This document shows positions 17,758 through 24,263 of a stretch of 32,702 bases of DNA, in pieces; position 1 is the stretch's first letter, and the number at the start of each line of letters is the position of its first letter. Both the position numbers and the translations under genes were made by a program. The DNA is from Alphaproteobacteria bacterium (GTDB lineage: Bacteria; Pseudomonadota; Alphaproteobacteria; Micropepsales; Micropepsaceae), in contig JAFAVP010000097.1 of assembly GCA_019242395.1 (NCBI GenBank), forward strand, positions 1 through 32,702, read 5' to 3'. The notes under the pieces are model-generated. The model was not told where the DNA came from and made no database searches. It saw only the letters and a list, made by a program, of their open reading frames with translations.

Positions 17758-18558
17758 ATGAACATTTCGGTCTCCGAAGAGCTGGTGGCGAAATCGCACG
17801 CGGATGCGGTGCTGCGACTCACCATGAACCGGGCAGCGGCCCGCAATGCCCTCAGTACCGCCATGATGACGGCGCTGCAGCGCGCTTTGGACGGCGCCGC
17901 CGAAGATGACTCGCGCGCGATCCTGCTGGCGGCGGAGGGTTCGGCCTTTTGCGCCGGCCACGATCTGAAGGAAATGACGGCACTCCGCTCCGAGCCTGAC
18001 AGGGGCCGCGCCGCTTTCGAAGCCATTTTTGCGCAATGCTCGAAGCTGATGCAGACGATTGTGCGTCATCCGAAACCGGTGATCGCGCAGGTGCAGGGGA
18101 TTGCGACCGCCGCGGGCTGCCAGCTGGTGGCGAGCTGCGATTTGGCTATCGCCTCGGAAACTGCCTACTTCGCTACCCCGGGAGTTAACATAGGCCTGTT
18201 CTGCTCCACACCCATGGTGGCGCTCTCGCGCAATGTGTCGCGCAAAGAGGCGATGGAGATGCTGCTGACCGGCGAGATGATCTCTGCCGAACGCGCGCGA
18301 GAGATTGGTTTGGTGAACCGCGCCGTTCCTGCCGCTCAACTGGAGTCCGAAACCATGCAGCTCGCGCAACTCATCGCCTCCAAGCCGCGCGCGACCGTTA
18401 AGATCGGCAAAGAAGCGTTCTATCGCCAGCTCGAGATGTCTCTCAGCGACGCCTACGATTACGCTTCCCGCGCGATGACCGAAAACATGCTGCACGCTGA
18501 GTCTACAGAGGGCATTTGCGCCTTCCTCGAAAAACGCGAACCCCAATGGCCAGAGTAG
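17758..18558 (+). CDS. Crotonase-fold protein (annotated type: enoyl-CoA hydratase), probably not a hydratase
   Basis: The 266-residue protein has the crotonase fold: GSAFCAGHDLKEM (61-73) supplies one oxyanion-hole backbone, GIATAAGCQLVASCDLAIAS (114-133) the second, and the C-terminal helices follow. It resembles the ECHDC3-like group. The two catalytic glutamates of classical hydratases would align with Q122 (GCQL for GCEL) and G142 (PGVNIG for PE-x-x-x-G), so water addition to enoyl-CoA is doubtful; this alignment was done by eye. The start is the ATG with a -10 box just upstream. Its stop is immediately followed by the next gene's ATG. Confidence 0.85.
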   Translation: MNISVSEELVAKSHADAVLRLTMNRAAARNALSTAMMTALQRALDGAAEDDSRAILLAAEGSAFCAGHDLKEMTALRSEPDRGRAAFEAIFAQCSKLMQTIVRHPKPVIAQVQGIATAAGCQLVASCDLAIASETAYFATPGVNIGLFCSTPMVALSRNVSRKEAMEMLLTGEMISAERAREIGLVNRAVPAAQLESETMQLAQLIASKPRATVKIGKEAFYRQLEMSLSDAYDYASRAMTENMLHAESTEGICAFLEKREPQWPE

Positions 18559-19074
18559 ATGCCGAGCTACTCCGACGATCTCATCAAATCCGTGCTGCAC
18601 TCTACCAAGGTGATTGCCATGGTGGGCGCGAGCGGCAACGAGATGCGGCCCAGCTATTTCGCCATGATATACCTGCTGGCGAAGGGCTACATCATTCATC
18701 CGGTGAACCCCGGCCTCGTGGGAAAGGCGATTCTCGGCCGGCGCGTGTATGCGTCGCTCAAGGATGTGCCGCCGCCGGTGGACATGGTCGACATCTTCCG
18801 CGCTTCAGACGCGGCGCCCGGGATCGTGAAGGAAGCGCTGGAAGAGAAGGATCGGCTGGGTATCAAAACCGTTTGGATGCAGCTGGGGGTGATCAACGAG
18901 GAAGCGGCGGAGATGGCGCGCGCCGCTGGTCTCACCGTCATCATGGACCGCTGCCCGAAAATTGAATACGGCCGGCTCTCGGGCGAAATCGGCTGGATGG
19001 GAGTGAACCGGAAGGTGATCGACAACCGCAAGCCCTTGCTCTTCGCCAAAGGCGGCTCGCTGAAACGCGCATGA
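18559..19074 (+). CDS. CoA-binding domain protein (YccU type)
   Basis: The 171 residues form a single Rossmann-like CoA-binding domain: VIAMVGASGNEMRPSYFAM near 18-36, YIIHPVNPG at about 44-52, VDMVDIFRASDAAP and KTVWMQLGVINEEAAEMARAAGL, then DRCPKIEY. These match small stand-alone CoA-binding proteins whose role is not established. It starts on the base after the stop of the crotonase gene, so the two are co-translated. I recall the pair being found near metY and rplM-rpsI in related Alphaproteobacteria. Confidence 0.9.
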   Translation: MPSYSDDLIKSVLHSTKVIAMVGASGNEMRPSYFAMIYLLAKGYIIHPVNPGLVGKAILGRRVYASLKDVPPPVDMVDIFRASDAAPGIVKEALEEKDRLGIKTVWMQLGVINEEAAEMARAAGLTVIMDRCPKIEYGRLSGEIGWMGVNRKVIDNRKPLLFAKGGSLKRA

Positions 19075-20732: not shown

Positions 20733-21266
20733 TTAGGGACCAACTTTGTAACCCTCATTAGGGTGGACCCAGATAACCGTCTCTGCAAAATCCGGCTGAG
20801 TTACGCCATCAACCGTGACGCTCGTGGTCAACTTGTTACCTTGCGGCAAATACGTCGTGCAGACCTCCTTGCCGAATCGTGCGGCCATCGAAGTCTCGAT
20901 TTGAGCCCGGAGCTGGGCTGCTTGGGCATCGGTCACAGATTTTCCCTGAACAAATATCTGCGCAGCATCCACATCTTGCTTACGCAAAGGCCCACATACC
21001 GCCTCTCCGCGGATTTCGACCGGAGAAATCGTTTTCATGACGATGAATTGCTGCGGGGATAAGAGAACTTCTGCTTGGTTCAGAATTTTACCATTGTGAT
21101 CAAAAGTGTAGCCCGCAAGTGCATTACAGGTCTTTCGCACGGCATCAGGCGAATAGCATTGCAAGCTACCCGTTCGAGCCTTTGCCAGAGGATCAGCGTT
21201 TGCGCTCGTGGCAGACACCATCCACATAAGCGTTAGAAAACCAAGAATTTCGGGCTGGTGGTTCAT
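20733..21266 (-). CDS. Secreted cysteine-containing protein coupled to ctaA, function unknown
   Basis: A 177-residue protein with a signal peptide (about 1-24, ending SANA). Four cysteines in the mature part (LQCYS, RKTCNAL, EAVCGPL, KEVCTTY) could form two disulfides. No family is recognised. The ATG overlaps the ctaA stop as ATGA (21263-21266), so it is probably translated with heme A synthase. Base composition is visibly more AT-rich than its neighbours, which may mean recent acquisition. Confidence 0.65.
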   Translation of the reverse strand: MNHQPEILGFLTLMWMVSATSANADPLAKARTGSLQCYSPDAVRKTCNALAGYTFDHNGKILNQAEVLLSPQQFIVMKTISPVEIRGEAVCGPLRKQDVDAAQIFVQGKSVTDAQAAQLRAQIETSMAARFGKEVCTTYLPQGNKLTTSVTVDGVTQPDFAETVIWVHPNEGYKVGP

Positions 21267-22429
21267 TTCATTCCCCCTTGTCCTGAGCTTCTACGCCTGA
21301 GCTCATACCAATGCCACAAGGCGGCGGAGAGGAGTGCGAGCGCGGTGAGCTGGTGCAGAGCTGATAAGAGTATTGGTGCCTGATTCAGCAGCGTTGTGAT
21401 CCCTAATGCTATCTGCGCGAAGGTGATGAGCAGGATGGCCCAGACGCTGGTCCGTGCAGGGCCAGTGACTTTCGCACGGATGGCGGACCACCACACCGCG
21501 ATTGCGCCAAGCGCGACGATGTAGGCGCCGATGCGGTGATCGAACTGCGCTAGTCCGGGGTTTTCGAAGAAGTTGATCCACCAGGGCGCGTTGAAGAACG
21601 GATGCTCCGGCAGGAAGCGCCCGTCCATCGACGGCCAGGTATTGTAGATCAGCCCTGCGTGCAGTCCCGCCACCAGCGCTCCCAGCAGCATTTGCAGGTA
21701 GATGAGGAGGGGGAAAACGAGTGCAAGGTCCCCCACCCGAACCGCCTTCGCTGACGCTTCGGCGGTTCGACCTCCCCACGTAGGGGGAGGTGAAATCTGG
21801 GTTTTCTGTTCACCTCCCGCTTGTGGGGAGGTCGGCGAGCGGAGCGAGCCGGGTGGGAGGCGCAAATATTCCAACGCCGTCCACAAGATGGCCGCGAACA
21901 GCAATAATGCGACACCGAGGTGAATCGCGAGGCGGTATTGCGAAACGGAAACACGCGTCTCCAGTCCGCTTTCGACCATCCACCAGCCGACGAAGCCTTG
22001 TAAGGCCCCCAGTGCGAACAGCACCACCATGCGCGGGACGTCGCGGCGCGTGATAGCGCCGGTCCATGCGAAAAGCAGGAATGGCAGCAGGAAGACGACT
22101 CCGATCAGCCGGCCGAGGAGCCGGTGCGTCCATTCCCACCGGTAGATGAACTGGAACTGCGCCAAGCTCATGCCCTGGTGCTCGTGGACGTACTGCGGAA
22201 TGCGCTGATATTTGTGGAAGGCATCGAGCCAGTCTGACTGCGACAGCGGCGGGATCGCGCCCATCACCGGATCCCATTCCGTGATGGATAGTCCGGAGCC
22301 GGTGAGCCGCGTCAGGCCGCCGATCACTACCATTCCGGCAATCATCAGCGCCACCACAATGAGCCACCAGCCGACAGCGCGGCGGGAGTGAAGCGCCTTC
22401 GAAGGCAGGCCGGCGGCAATAGCGATCAT
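21263..22429 (-). CDS. ctaA: Heme A synthase (Cox15/CtaA type) with an in-frame repeat insertion
   Basis: Oxidises heme O to heme A for cytochrome oxidase; an inner membrane protein. With the ATG at 22429 it has 388 residues and eight helices: about 19-38, 100-122, 132-153, 166-188, then 234-262, 294-316, 327-347 and 354-375. Candidate heme-ligand histidines are H102 (WTHRLLGR), H170 (AIHLGV), H298 (FDHRIGAY) and H359 (ALHQLTAL). Residues about 191-234 have no counterpart expected in the family and are encoded by a palindromic repeat (21730-21860) in the linker between the two four-helix halves. The longer start at 22573 is rejected because it overlaps the divergent gene's start. Confidence 0.93.
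   Translation of the reverse strand: MIAIAAGLPSKALHSRRAVGWWLIVVALMIAGMVVIGGLTRLTGSGLSITEWDPVMGAIPPLSQSDWLDAFHKYQRIPQYVHEHQGMSLAQFQFIYRWEWTHRLLGRLIGVVFLLPFLLFAWTGAITRRDVPRMVVLFALGALQGFVGWWMVESGLETRVSVSQYRLAIHLGVALLLFAAILWTALEYLRLPPGSLRSPTSPQAGGEQKTQISPPPTWGGRTAEASAKAVRVGDLALVFPLLIYLQMLLGALVAGLHAGLIYNTWPSMDGRFLPEHPFFNAPWWINFFENPGLAQFDHRIGAYIVALGAIAVWWSAIRAKVTGPARTSVWAILLITFAQIALGITTLLNQAPILLSALHQLTALALLSAALWHWYELRRRSSGQGGMK
21730..21860. repeat. Multi-hairpin palindromic element inserted in frame within ctaA
   Basis: Outer ends CCCACCCG (21732-21739) and CGGGTGGG (21850-21857) are inverted matches. Inside lie hairpins CGAACCGCC/GGCGGTTCG (21738-21769), ACCTCCCC/GGGGAGGT (21770-21791), ACCTCCC/GGGAGGT (21812-21832) and a short CGGC/GCCG stem. 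The two halves are inverted relatives, the layout of a REPIN. The same type of sequence is frequent between genes in Alphaproteobacteria; here it stays open in the ctaA frame and adds about 44 residues. Confidence 0.8.
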
Positions 22430-22523
22430 CGCTGGCGTGTTACCGGCTGGGACCAATTCCGTCCATGCGGCTTGAGCGGGGGCCCAAATCGCCGCATGCT
22501 GGCGTGGATTGGGGAGGCTAATC

Positions 22524-24263
22524 ATGCAAACGTCCAGAATAGTCGTAGCTGGCCTGCTGGCCGCATCCGCCATTTGCTCTCTTGCCTATGGCGCAGACGA
22601 ACATGCCGGCATGCCGACGCCGGCAGCCGTAGACTCCGGCATGGCCATGAAGATGACGTTGCCGCCGATGCCGGCCGTCTATCCGCAAGCCGGCAAGCAG
22701 GGTGCGCCGGTGCTCGCCGGTTACGGCGATCACCATCACACGATCACCACGTCAAATCCGCAGGCCCAGGCGTACTTCGATCAGGGCATACGGCTGCTGT
22801 TCGGCTTCAACCATGCCGAAGCCATCCGCTCCTTTCGCGAAGCGGCGAGGCTCGATCCCAATTGCGCCATGTGCTGGTGGGGGGTGGCGTTTGCGCTCGG
22901 CCCGAACATCAACCTGCCGATGCAGCCGGATGCCAATGCTCCCGCCATGGCAGCTGTGCAGATGGCGCGCGCCCTGGAACCGCATGCCTCGCCGGAAGAA
23001 GTGGCGTGGATCGAGGCCCTCGCTACGCGGTACTCCGCCGACCCGAAAGCCGATCGCCACGCACTGGACGAAGCGTTCGCACAGGCAATGGGCAAAGTAT
23101 GGGATCAACATCTGAATGACCTCGACGCGGGCGTGTTCTACGCAGAATCCATGATGGACACGCAGCCGTGGGACTACTGGCAGGAGGATCACACGACACC
23201 GAAGGGCCACGGCGCCGAGATCGATGCCACCTTGGATACCGTGCTCAAACGCGAGCCGCTGCATCCCGGCGCGCTGCATCTTTACATCCACGCCATGGAG
23301 GCTTCGAACACACCGGAACGCGCGGAAGCCGCCGCCGACAAGCTGGAGCCGCTGATGCCCTCGTCAGGGCACATCGTGCACATGCCGTCTCATATTTATT
23401 TTCGAGTAGGACGGTACCGAGATGCGGTTAAAGTGAACACGGCCGCAGCGCTAAAGGACGAGGAATACATCGCAGCCTGTCAGGCGCAGGGGTTCTACCC
23501 CCTCGCCTATTACAGCCACAATATCCACTTCCTCTGGACCTCTTCGGAAATGCTTGGGCGCTATCAGGCTGCGGAAGATGCCGGACAAAGGCTACAACGG
23601 GCAGCAGCGGCTGGCGCGCCGATGGCCGCAGCCATCCCACCCGTGCAACTATACCTGCTGGTGCCAGTCGTCACGGACATCCGGTTCGGAAAATGGGATA
23701 AAGCGTTGGCCGAGAAAATCCCGTCGCCCGATCTGAAGCTCGACCTCGCGATGTCCCACTACGGACGCGCGTTCGCCTATGCCAACAAGCATCAGTATAG
23801 GCGCGCGGCGAAGGAGCGGTCGGCCCTAGCCGCCATGATCGCCAAAAAGGAATTCGCCGAGATCGACGCCTTCCCTGTGCCAGGAACTCAAATGGCACAG
23901 GTCGCGCTGCACCTACTGGATGGTGAGATCGCGCGCATCAAGGGCAGAACCGCCGTCGCACTACATCATTTCAAGACAGCAAACGAACTCTACAAGGCGT
24001 TGCCCTACACCGAGCCTGATTACTGGTATCAGCCAGTCAGTCACATCTACGGCGCCGCGTTGCTTGCCGCAGGGAAACCGGCCGAAGCGGAAGCGGTCTA
24101 CCGCGAAAGCCTCACGGTTCACCGTTTGGATGGGTGGGCGCTCTACGGCCTCGCGCAGGCTCTGGAGGCAGAAGGCAAGACGAAAGAAGCAGCCGACACG
24201 AGGGCGCAATTCACCTCTGTCTGGCAGCTGGCGGATACGAAGCTCACCGCATCGCGCTTTTGA
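22524..24263 (+). CDS. Exported TPR-repeat protein with CxxC and a Met/His-rich N-terminus
   Basis: A 579-residue protein; GGGGAGG (22511-22517) lies 6 bases ahead of the ATG at 22524. Residues 1-24 are a signal peptide. Next comes a Met/His-rich stretch (HAGMP, GMAMKM, PPMP, GDHHHT). TPR-like helical repeats then follow to the end, including AYFDQGIRLLFGFNHAEAIRSF with PNCAMCWWG, ALHLYIHAMEAS, GHIVHMPSHIYFRVGRYRDA and YGAALLAAGKPAEAEAVYRES. The family is widespread but uncharacterised as far as I recall. Its position beside ctaA and ahead of a multicopper oxidase hints at copper or respiratory metabolism; this is inference. Confidence 0.8.
   Translation: MQTSRIVVAGLLAASAICSLAYGADEHAGMPTPAAVDSGMAMKMTLPPMPAVYPQAGKQGAPVLAGYGDHHHTITTSNPQAQAYFDQGIRLLFGFNHAEAIRSFREAARLDPNCAMCWWGVAFALGPNINLPMQPDANAPAMAAVQMARALEPHASPEEVAWIEALATRYSADPKADRHALDEAFAQAMGKVWDQHLNDLDAGVFYAESMMDTQPWDYWQEDHTTPKGHGAEIDATLDTVLKREPLHPGALHLYIHAMEASNTPERAEAAADKLEPLMPSSGHIVHMPSHIYFRVGRYRDAVKVNTAAALKDEEYIAACQAQGFYPLAYYSHNIHFLWTSSEMLGRYQAAEDAGQRLQRAAAAGAPMAAAIPPVQLYLLVPVVTDIRFGKWDKALAEKIPSPDLKLDLAMSHYGRAFAYANKHQYRRAAKERSALAAMIAKKEFAEIDAFPVPGTQMAQVALHLLDGEIARIKGRTAVALHHFKTANELYKALPYTEPDYWYQPVSHIYGAALLAAGKPAEAEAVYRESLTVHRLDGWALYGLAQALEAEGKTKEAADTRAQFTSVWQLADTKLTASRF

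Follow-up and report, generated by a model that had tools for sequence, protein, structure and literature searches.

An in-frame REP element in the heme A synthase gene, and other REP types in the same linker among its relatives

Rickettsia palindromic elements (RPEs), as described in excerpts from two papers (PMC10969869, PMC3733652), are multi-copy and lie in frame in conserved genes, to which they add tolerated stretches of peptide. In several bacteria, REP sequences tagged with GTAG or CGTC are found within genes, singly or as dimers, and different REPs stand at about the same place of recB in X. campestris and X. oryzae, again according to excerpts (PMC3733652). On the strength of these excerpts, recB of the two Xanthomonas is the nearest precedent seen for the situation in ctaA, the gene of heme A synthase, treated here. 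Searches of the open-access PMC literature showed no report of such recurrence over many species in a single loop of an enzyme for respiratory assembly.

The DNA analysed (the window) is a stretch of 32,702 nucleotides, contig C200 in a draft genome of 3.135 Mb and 295 contigs (G000, its own genome), and its genus is inferred to be Rhizomicrobium. The ctaA gene (21263-22573, minus strand) is an open ORF of 436 amino acids; its true start may be Met49 (codon 22427-22429), which agrees with the N-terminal beginnings of the relatives in the CtaA alignment. Domain and fold both place the product among the heme A synthases: COX15-CtaA (PF02628) is matched over its full length in Pfam (E 1.7e-103), and in Foldseek the AlphaFold model matches 6a2j, the B. 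subtilis enzyme (TM 0.51 by query, 0.69 by target), as well as 8aw5, the Aquifex heme A synthase. A sequence search of the PDB with CtaA gave no match. In the model, built from 49 sequences, helix 4 covers residues 212-237 and helix 5 residues 271-303, with a mean pLDDT of 49-53 across residues 241-270. The REP element is read as residues about 239-282 of the 436-residue ORF, and the insert is thus predicted to be a low-confidence linker joining helices 4 and 5, where the initial annotation had put it. This loop is presumably cytoplasmic, as follows from an eight-helix, N-inside topology. The claim of 44 extra residues at 191-234 holds for the position, which is the same when counted from Met49, and fails for the size as a net gain: the linker has 47 residues in G000 vs 12-22 in plain linkers of the genus, a gain of about 25-35. 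Between G000 and its sister species G041, the two halves of ctaA differ with dN 0.06/dS 0.87 and dN 0.07/dS 0.76; these ratios (∼0.07 and ∼0.10) show, at the level of sequence comparison, that both halves are under constraint. A small ORF between metY and ctaA (20733-21266, minus strand), without Pfam match, is absent in G041, where only ∼27 bases are left between the metY and ctaA matches.

The element (21730-21861) lies in frame inside ctaA, and its DNA makes up nearly the entire linker of G000. It consists of two inverted units that face each other, with the layout CCCCCACCCG-hairpin-CGACCTCCCC..GGGGGAGGTGAA, a 14-nt spacer (21795-21808) and the inverted counterpart; the outer ends are CCCCCACCCG and CGGGTGGG. 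Unit 1, the first in the reading direction (21809-21861, minus strand), has a hairpin at 21833-21851 with arms CGGC/GCCG, for which G041 has CGCG/CGCG, a paired change. Unit 2, the second (21730-21794, minus strand), has a hairpin at 21738-21769, with arms 21738-21746 and 21761-21769. A long inner stem (21768-21834) joins both units through arms 21768-21779/21823-21834, which are 100% identical as inverted arms, and 21782-21794/21809-21821, which are 92% identical. The reading frame is open through the whole element. The plus strand folds as DNA at -47.7 kcal/mol (z -6.79) and the coding strand folds as RNA at -84.7 kcal/mol (z -8.05), with none of 200 shuffles as good in either case; Rfam has no match across window positions 21000-23000. 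Arms, fold z and open ORF bear out the first reading of this DNA as a palindromic, REPIN-like element with inverted ends, in frame in ctaA. As a short, GC-rich, multi-copy palindrome, of a class found as singlets or inverted pairs, it corresponds to what is called a REP or REPIN.

Its multi-copy nature appears from the search of its own genome, which gave 24 matches, the ctaA copy included; the other 23 lie at 13 places, of which 12 carry the REP core. The thirteenth, directly after a tRNA gene (L015, ∼1513; G000:C260:5937-5969), has just the 20-nt stem core of the ctaA element, without the rest of the REP. A pattern search of the fetched loci of this genome found 18 full units of the same type (type A), which vary in their stems; one of the 18 belongs to ctaA. 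The gene context of the REP sites was judged from ORFs and Pfam, without a gene caller. By this measure, none of the 12 other sites is shown to lie inside a gene: three of the 10 ORFs scanned at eight sites have a Pfam domain, the REP being ahead of the domain each time, and the remaining four sites have short open frames. Proteins of the Y1_Tnp family occur in 18 of 69 genomes of the genus, with one in G000; the 3,315-base contig that holds this sole match, a short one, has no type-A unit.

A CtaA match is present in 60 of the 69 genomes of the genus, and 58 linkers were read (L054 and L055 have no readable linker). Sorted by eye, 45 of the 58 are plain (36-66 nt), so that most relatives lack the segment in the alignment. 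Outside the genus, all 24 linkers read in the family (27 genomes) measure 42-54 nt, and all 30 read in Phenylobacterium measure 48 nt (58 of 60 genomes have a match, and 30 loci were read). One linker of Phenylobacterium (L193, peptide LPSPWGGR), considered as REP-like, proved ordinary, the 30 linkers being all of the same length and the four printed sharing the peptide. The other 13 linkers of the genus hold REP or REP-like DNA, plain and decayed linkers having been told apart by eye. G000 and G041 carry the same element at the same place of ctaA. The linkers of G033 and G014 hold single units of the same family in opposite orientations, those of G032, G008, G007, G027, G012 and G009 hold other REP types, and those of G048 and G045 hold one common REP-like variant. 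G029 has a decayed remnant that resembles the unit of G033. Both checks proposed at the outset, for further copies in the genome and for a gap in the relatives, thus support the reading as an insertion, with a refinement: 11 relatives have a segment of other DNA there, itself REP or REP-like in ten and a decayed remnant in one, so that the linker reads as a recurrent landing site instead of the scene of a single event.

Comparison of the linkers with other ctaA neighbourhoods by blast recovered types A and C only, and whole genomes were therefore searched for the other types. Copies elsewhere in the genome exist for 10 of the 13 linkers (G000, G041, G033, G014, G027, G012, G009, G032, G008 and G007). 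Whole-genome matches of the linker type number 16 in G027, 5 in G012, 29 in G009, 9 in G032, 75 in G008 and 23 in G007, counts in which the copy in ctaA is included and a single copy is often scored on both strands. Beyond ctaA, G048 has one 23-nt match, G045 has none, and G029 has none with the query used. Twelve of the 13 REP or REP-like linkers are multiples of three in length. The exception is G007 (L038), whose linker of 121 nt contains NN and does not keep the frame; a gap in the assembly is the most likely cause.

A second gene, trmB, behaves similarly. In G041, one of six other fetched REP sites falls in trmB (PF02390), with two different REPs in frame. Site 1 lies between an N-terminal segment conserved in the genus and the Pfam domain, and site 2 within the domain. 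In the best 30 of the 65 genomes with a match, site 1 has at least 33 nt in 12 of 29 readable loci (6-12 nt in the others) and site 2 at least 24 nt in 6 of 30 (6-15 nt in the others). All long inserts at both sites are multiples of three. A REP-type core (6-nt arm rule) occurs in 8 of the 12 long inserts at site 1, in 5 of the 6 at site 2 and in none of the short ones. The loci concerned include L281, L287-L292, L296, L301 and L310, and, for site 1, the single-contig genomes G051 and G052; TrmB of G000 is plain. The share of TrmB with REPs is biased upward, because the query itself carried REP peptides. Over both genes, all 28 inserts examined (11 in ctaA, 17 in trmB; G007 and G029 are outside this set) are open and have a length divisible by three. 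As many REPs can also be read through in the two other forward frames (46-79%), an open frame alone says little. The REP pairs at site 1 of G022 and its relative G023 (L288 and L310) align better with one of them reversed (119 of 130 positions identical, score 153) than in the same direction (108 of 126 positions, score 77); the pair was either flipped in place or inserted anew.

Among 44 other REP sites in the fetched loci, 20 have an open frame of at least 40 aa on both sides; 10 ORFs of these were scanned with Pfam, a further four of the 20 being sites of the window's own genome, scanned separately. Three of the 10 have a domain, and the REP lies within it only in TrmB of G041 (second site). 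A stretch of 1.2 Mb of G051 has 27 REP clusters, some of them lone short hairpins. Of 10 ORFs scanned over eight of these clusters, three have domains: for TrmB, it sits between the N-terminal segment conserved in the genus and the Pfam domain, and in LptE and in DUF559 with glyoxalase it lies ahead of the domain. In two genomes (L201 and L340), REPs stand directly before the DUF559 domain of an ORF.

The crowding of REPs in the ctaA linker was measured in 49 loci around ctaA (778,795 bases, own genome excluded), with a REP core defined as a 7-nt pyrimidine arm with at least five C, a perfect partner and a loop of 2-9. There are 18 core clusters in these loci vs three in one shuffle that kept base composition only. 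Eight of the 18 lie inside linkers, which make up 2,839 of the 778,795 bases (p about 1e-15); without G041, the count is 7 of 17 (p 2e-13). If REPs are confined to an intergenic tenth of the DNA, a fraction that is assumed, p is still 9e-7. Outside the linkers, a single cluster is spanned by an ORF of at least 60 aa on both sides (G041, L114 12460-12595). Its open frame has no Pfam match, and the cluster aligns to window positions 18554-18559, just before the start of a CoA-binding gene, where the own genome has no insert. Collectively, this suggests repeated arrival of different REP types, seen almost only in frame, at a small number of sites within conserved genes of the genus.

The sequence of the element itself is unevenly conserved. 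Between G000 and G041, only 2 of 63 nt differ in unit 2, which is almost unchanged, whereas 8 of 48 differ in unit 1, including the paired stem change, and 10 of 18 in the diverged spacer. Synonymous changes number 1 of 20 in unit 2 vs 118 of 231 in the two halves of ctaA (Fisher p 2.8e-5); when these halves are divided into 265 windows of 21 codons, every window lies higher than unit 2. The stem of unit 2 was found in no other REP unit compared. Gene conversion was considered and set aside, as comparison with the 17 remaining full type-A units of G000 and with the five units seen in G041 outside ctaA gave no donor. The conservation could reflect selection on the hairpin, recent exchange between the lineages or an unseen donor. 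Two other possibly orthologous linker pairs show no such synonymous conservation. The coding strand folds with z -3.8 or lower in 7 of the 13 REP or REP-like linkers and less strongly in L046 (-2.9), L031 (-2.1), L036 (-1.8) and L030, L037 and L029 (between -1.0 and -0.3); the lowest value among the 45 plain linkers is -2.6.

These data are very probably explained by entry of a REP element into the linker DNA of ctaA in the common ancestor of G000 and G041, its retention in frame and occupation of the same loop by other REP types in other species of the genus. The element, a small, non-autonomous, multi-copy palindrome, would have arrived by transposition, perhaps by a Y1/RAYT-type enzyme. It would have been retained because it left the frame open and merely lengthened a flexible loop, and the CtaA protein is presumably functional, with the segment still in it. 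The requirement for an uninterrupted frame may filter what stays and then protect it from deletion, and the two trmB sites would behave likewise.

An assembly artefact, with a repeat misjoined into ctaA, is hardly credible: the draft does consist of 295 contigs and repeats are where assemblies fail, but the element also stands at this position in G041, with substitutions of its own and an intact frame, and trmB inserts are present in two single-contig genomes. It is possible, though not probable, that one ancient REP in the linker was overwritten by the current REP family of each genome, by conversion or by insertion of REP into REP, and was lost in the plain lineages. Most REP types do share a general build, G045 and G048 have their common variant and G008 and G007 are alike in build. 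A CtaA tree built without the linker (58 rows of the genus and five of the family) shows REP-bearing rows scattered amid plain ones. The fewest changes that account for the ten confirmed cases are six in presence and eight in type (11 in type with the weak cases added), counts that do not separate gain from loss; with 37 of 60 inner branches starred, the backbone is partly weak, so that one old insertion followed by losses or replacements could resemble several. Against a single origin, the plain linkers interspersed with the REP-bearing ones have about the length of the family linkers (42-54 nt), and the types differ in sequence, unit number and orientation.

Repeated entry of REPs into a tolerant loop leaves one feature to be accounted for: a REP density above that of intergenic DNA is not expected from tolerance by itself, and a preference, slow loss or selection has to be added. 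A preference of the transposition machinery for the ctaA loop and the trmB sites, which would then be safe harbours within coding sequence, is rather doubtful: the excess of REP cores over the expectation for the assumed intergenic tenth and the use of the same sites by different types in two genes agree with it, but REPs begin at different points of the linker, and inspection by eye shows no shared target word. Selection could act if the hairpin were kept for its action in DNA or mRNA, for example by making translation slower at the junction of the two four-helix halves. The strong mRNA folds and the near absence of synonymous change in unit 2 point this way; six of the 13 linkers lack such a fold, 45 members of the genus manage without any REP and two other pairs lack the conservation, which makes a hairpin role quite improbable. 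The two ideas can be combined, in that safe-harbour loops (the ctaA linker and the two trmB sites) would be revisited by REPs, in a way somewhat like that of homing introns and inteins, which go back to a single site, with the letters of the palindrome kept at the DNA or mRNA level in the service of the host gene; this, too, is distinctly unlikely. With entry into a tolerant loop and retention in frame as the preferred reading, the genus offers a replicated natural experiment, with the same gene and loop, different inserts, plain sisters and one decayed example. Questions open to study in it are which loops can accommodate mobile DNA, whether the reading frame shields such DNA from loss and whether mRNA hairpins between protein halves matter.

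Like the RPEs of Rickettsia, the ctaA element is a multi-copy palindrome that lies in frame in a gene, here one judged functional from dN/dS. The likeness is one of behaviour, and the element is set beside the RPEs by description, not classified among them. In contrast to RPEs, most of the hosts here are metagenome-assembled relatives of Rhizomicrobium, and several REP types occupy a single loop. The element resembles REPINs in having two inverted REP units, but these are arranged inside out, unlike those of most REP pairs in the same genome. It also departs from the tagged REPs: of 18 units searched up to 8 nt from their ends, none has GTAG or its complement and one has CGTC. In-frame palindromes are already known, and compared with the recB precedent, the recurrence in ctaA spans ten or more genomes and extends to a second gene; what is new is that, across a genus, REPs of different types have repeatedly occupied the same loop.
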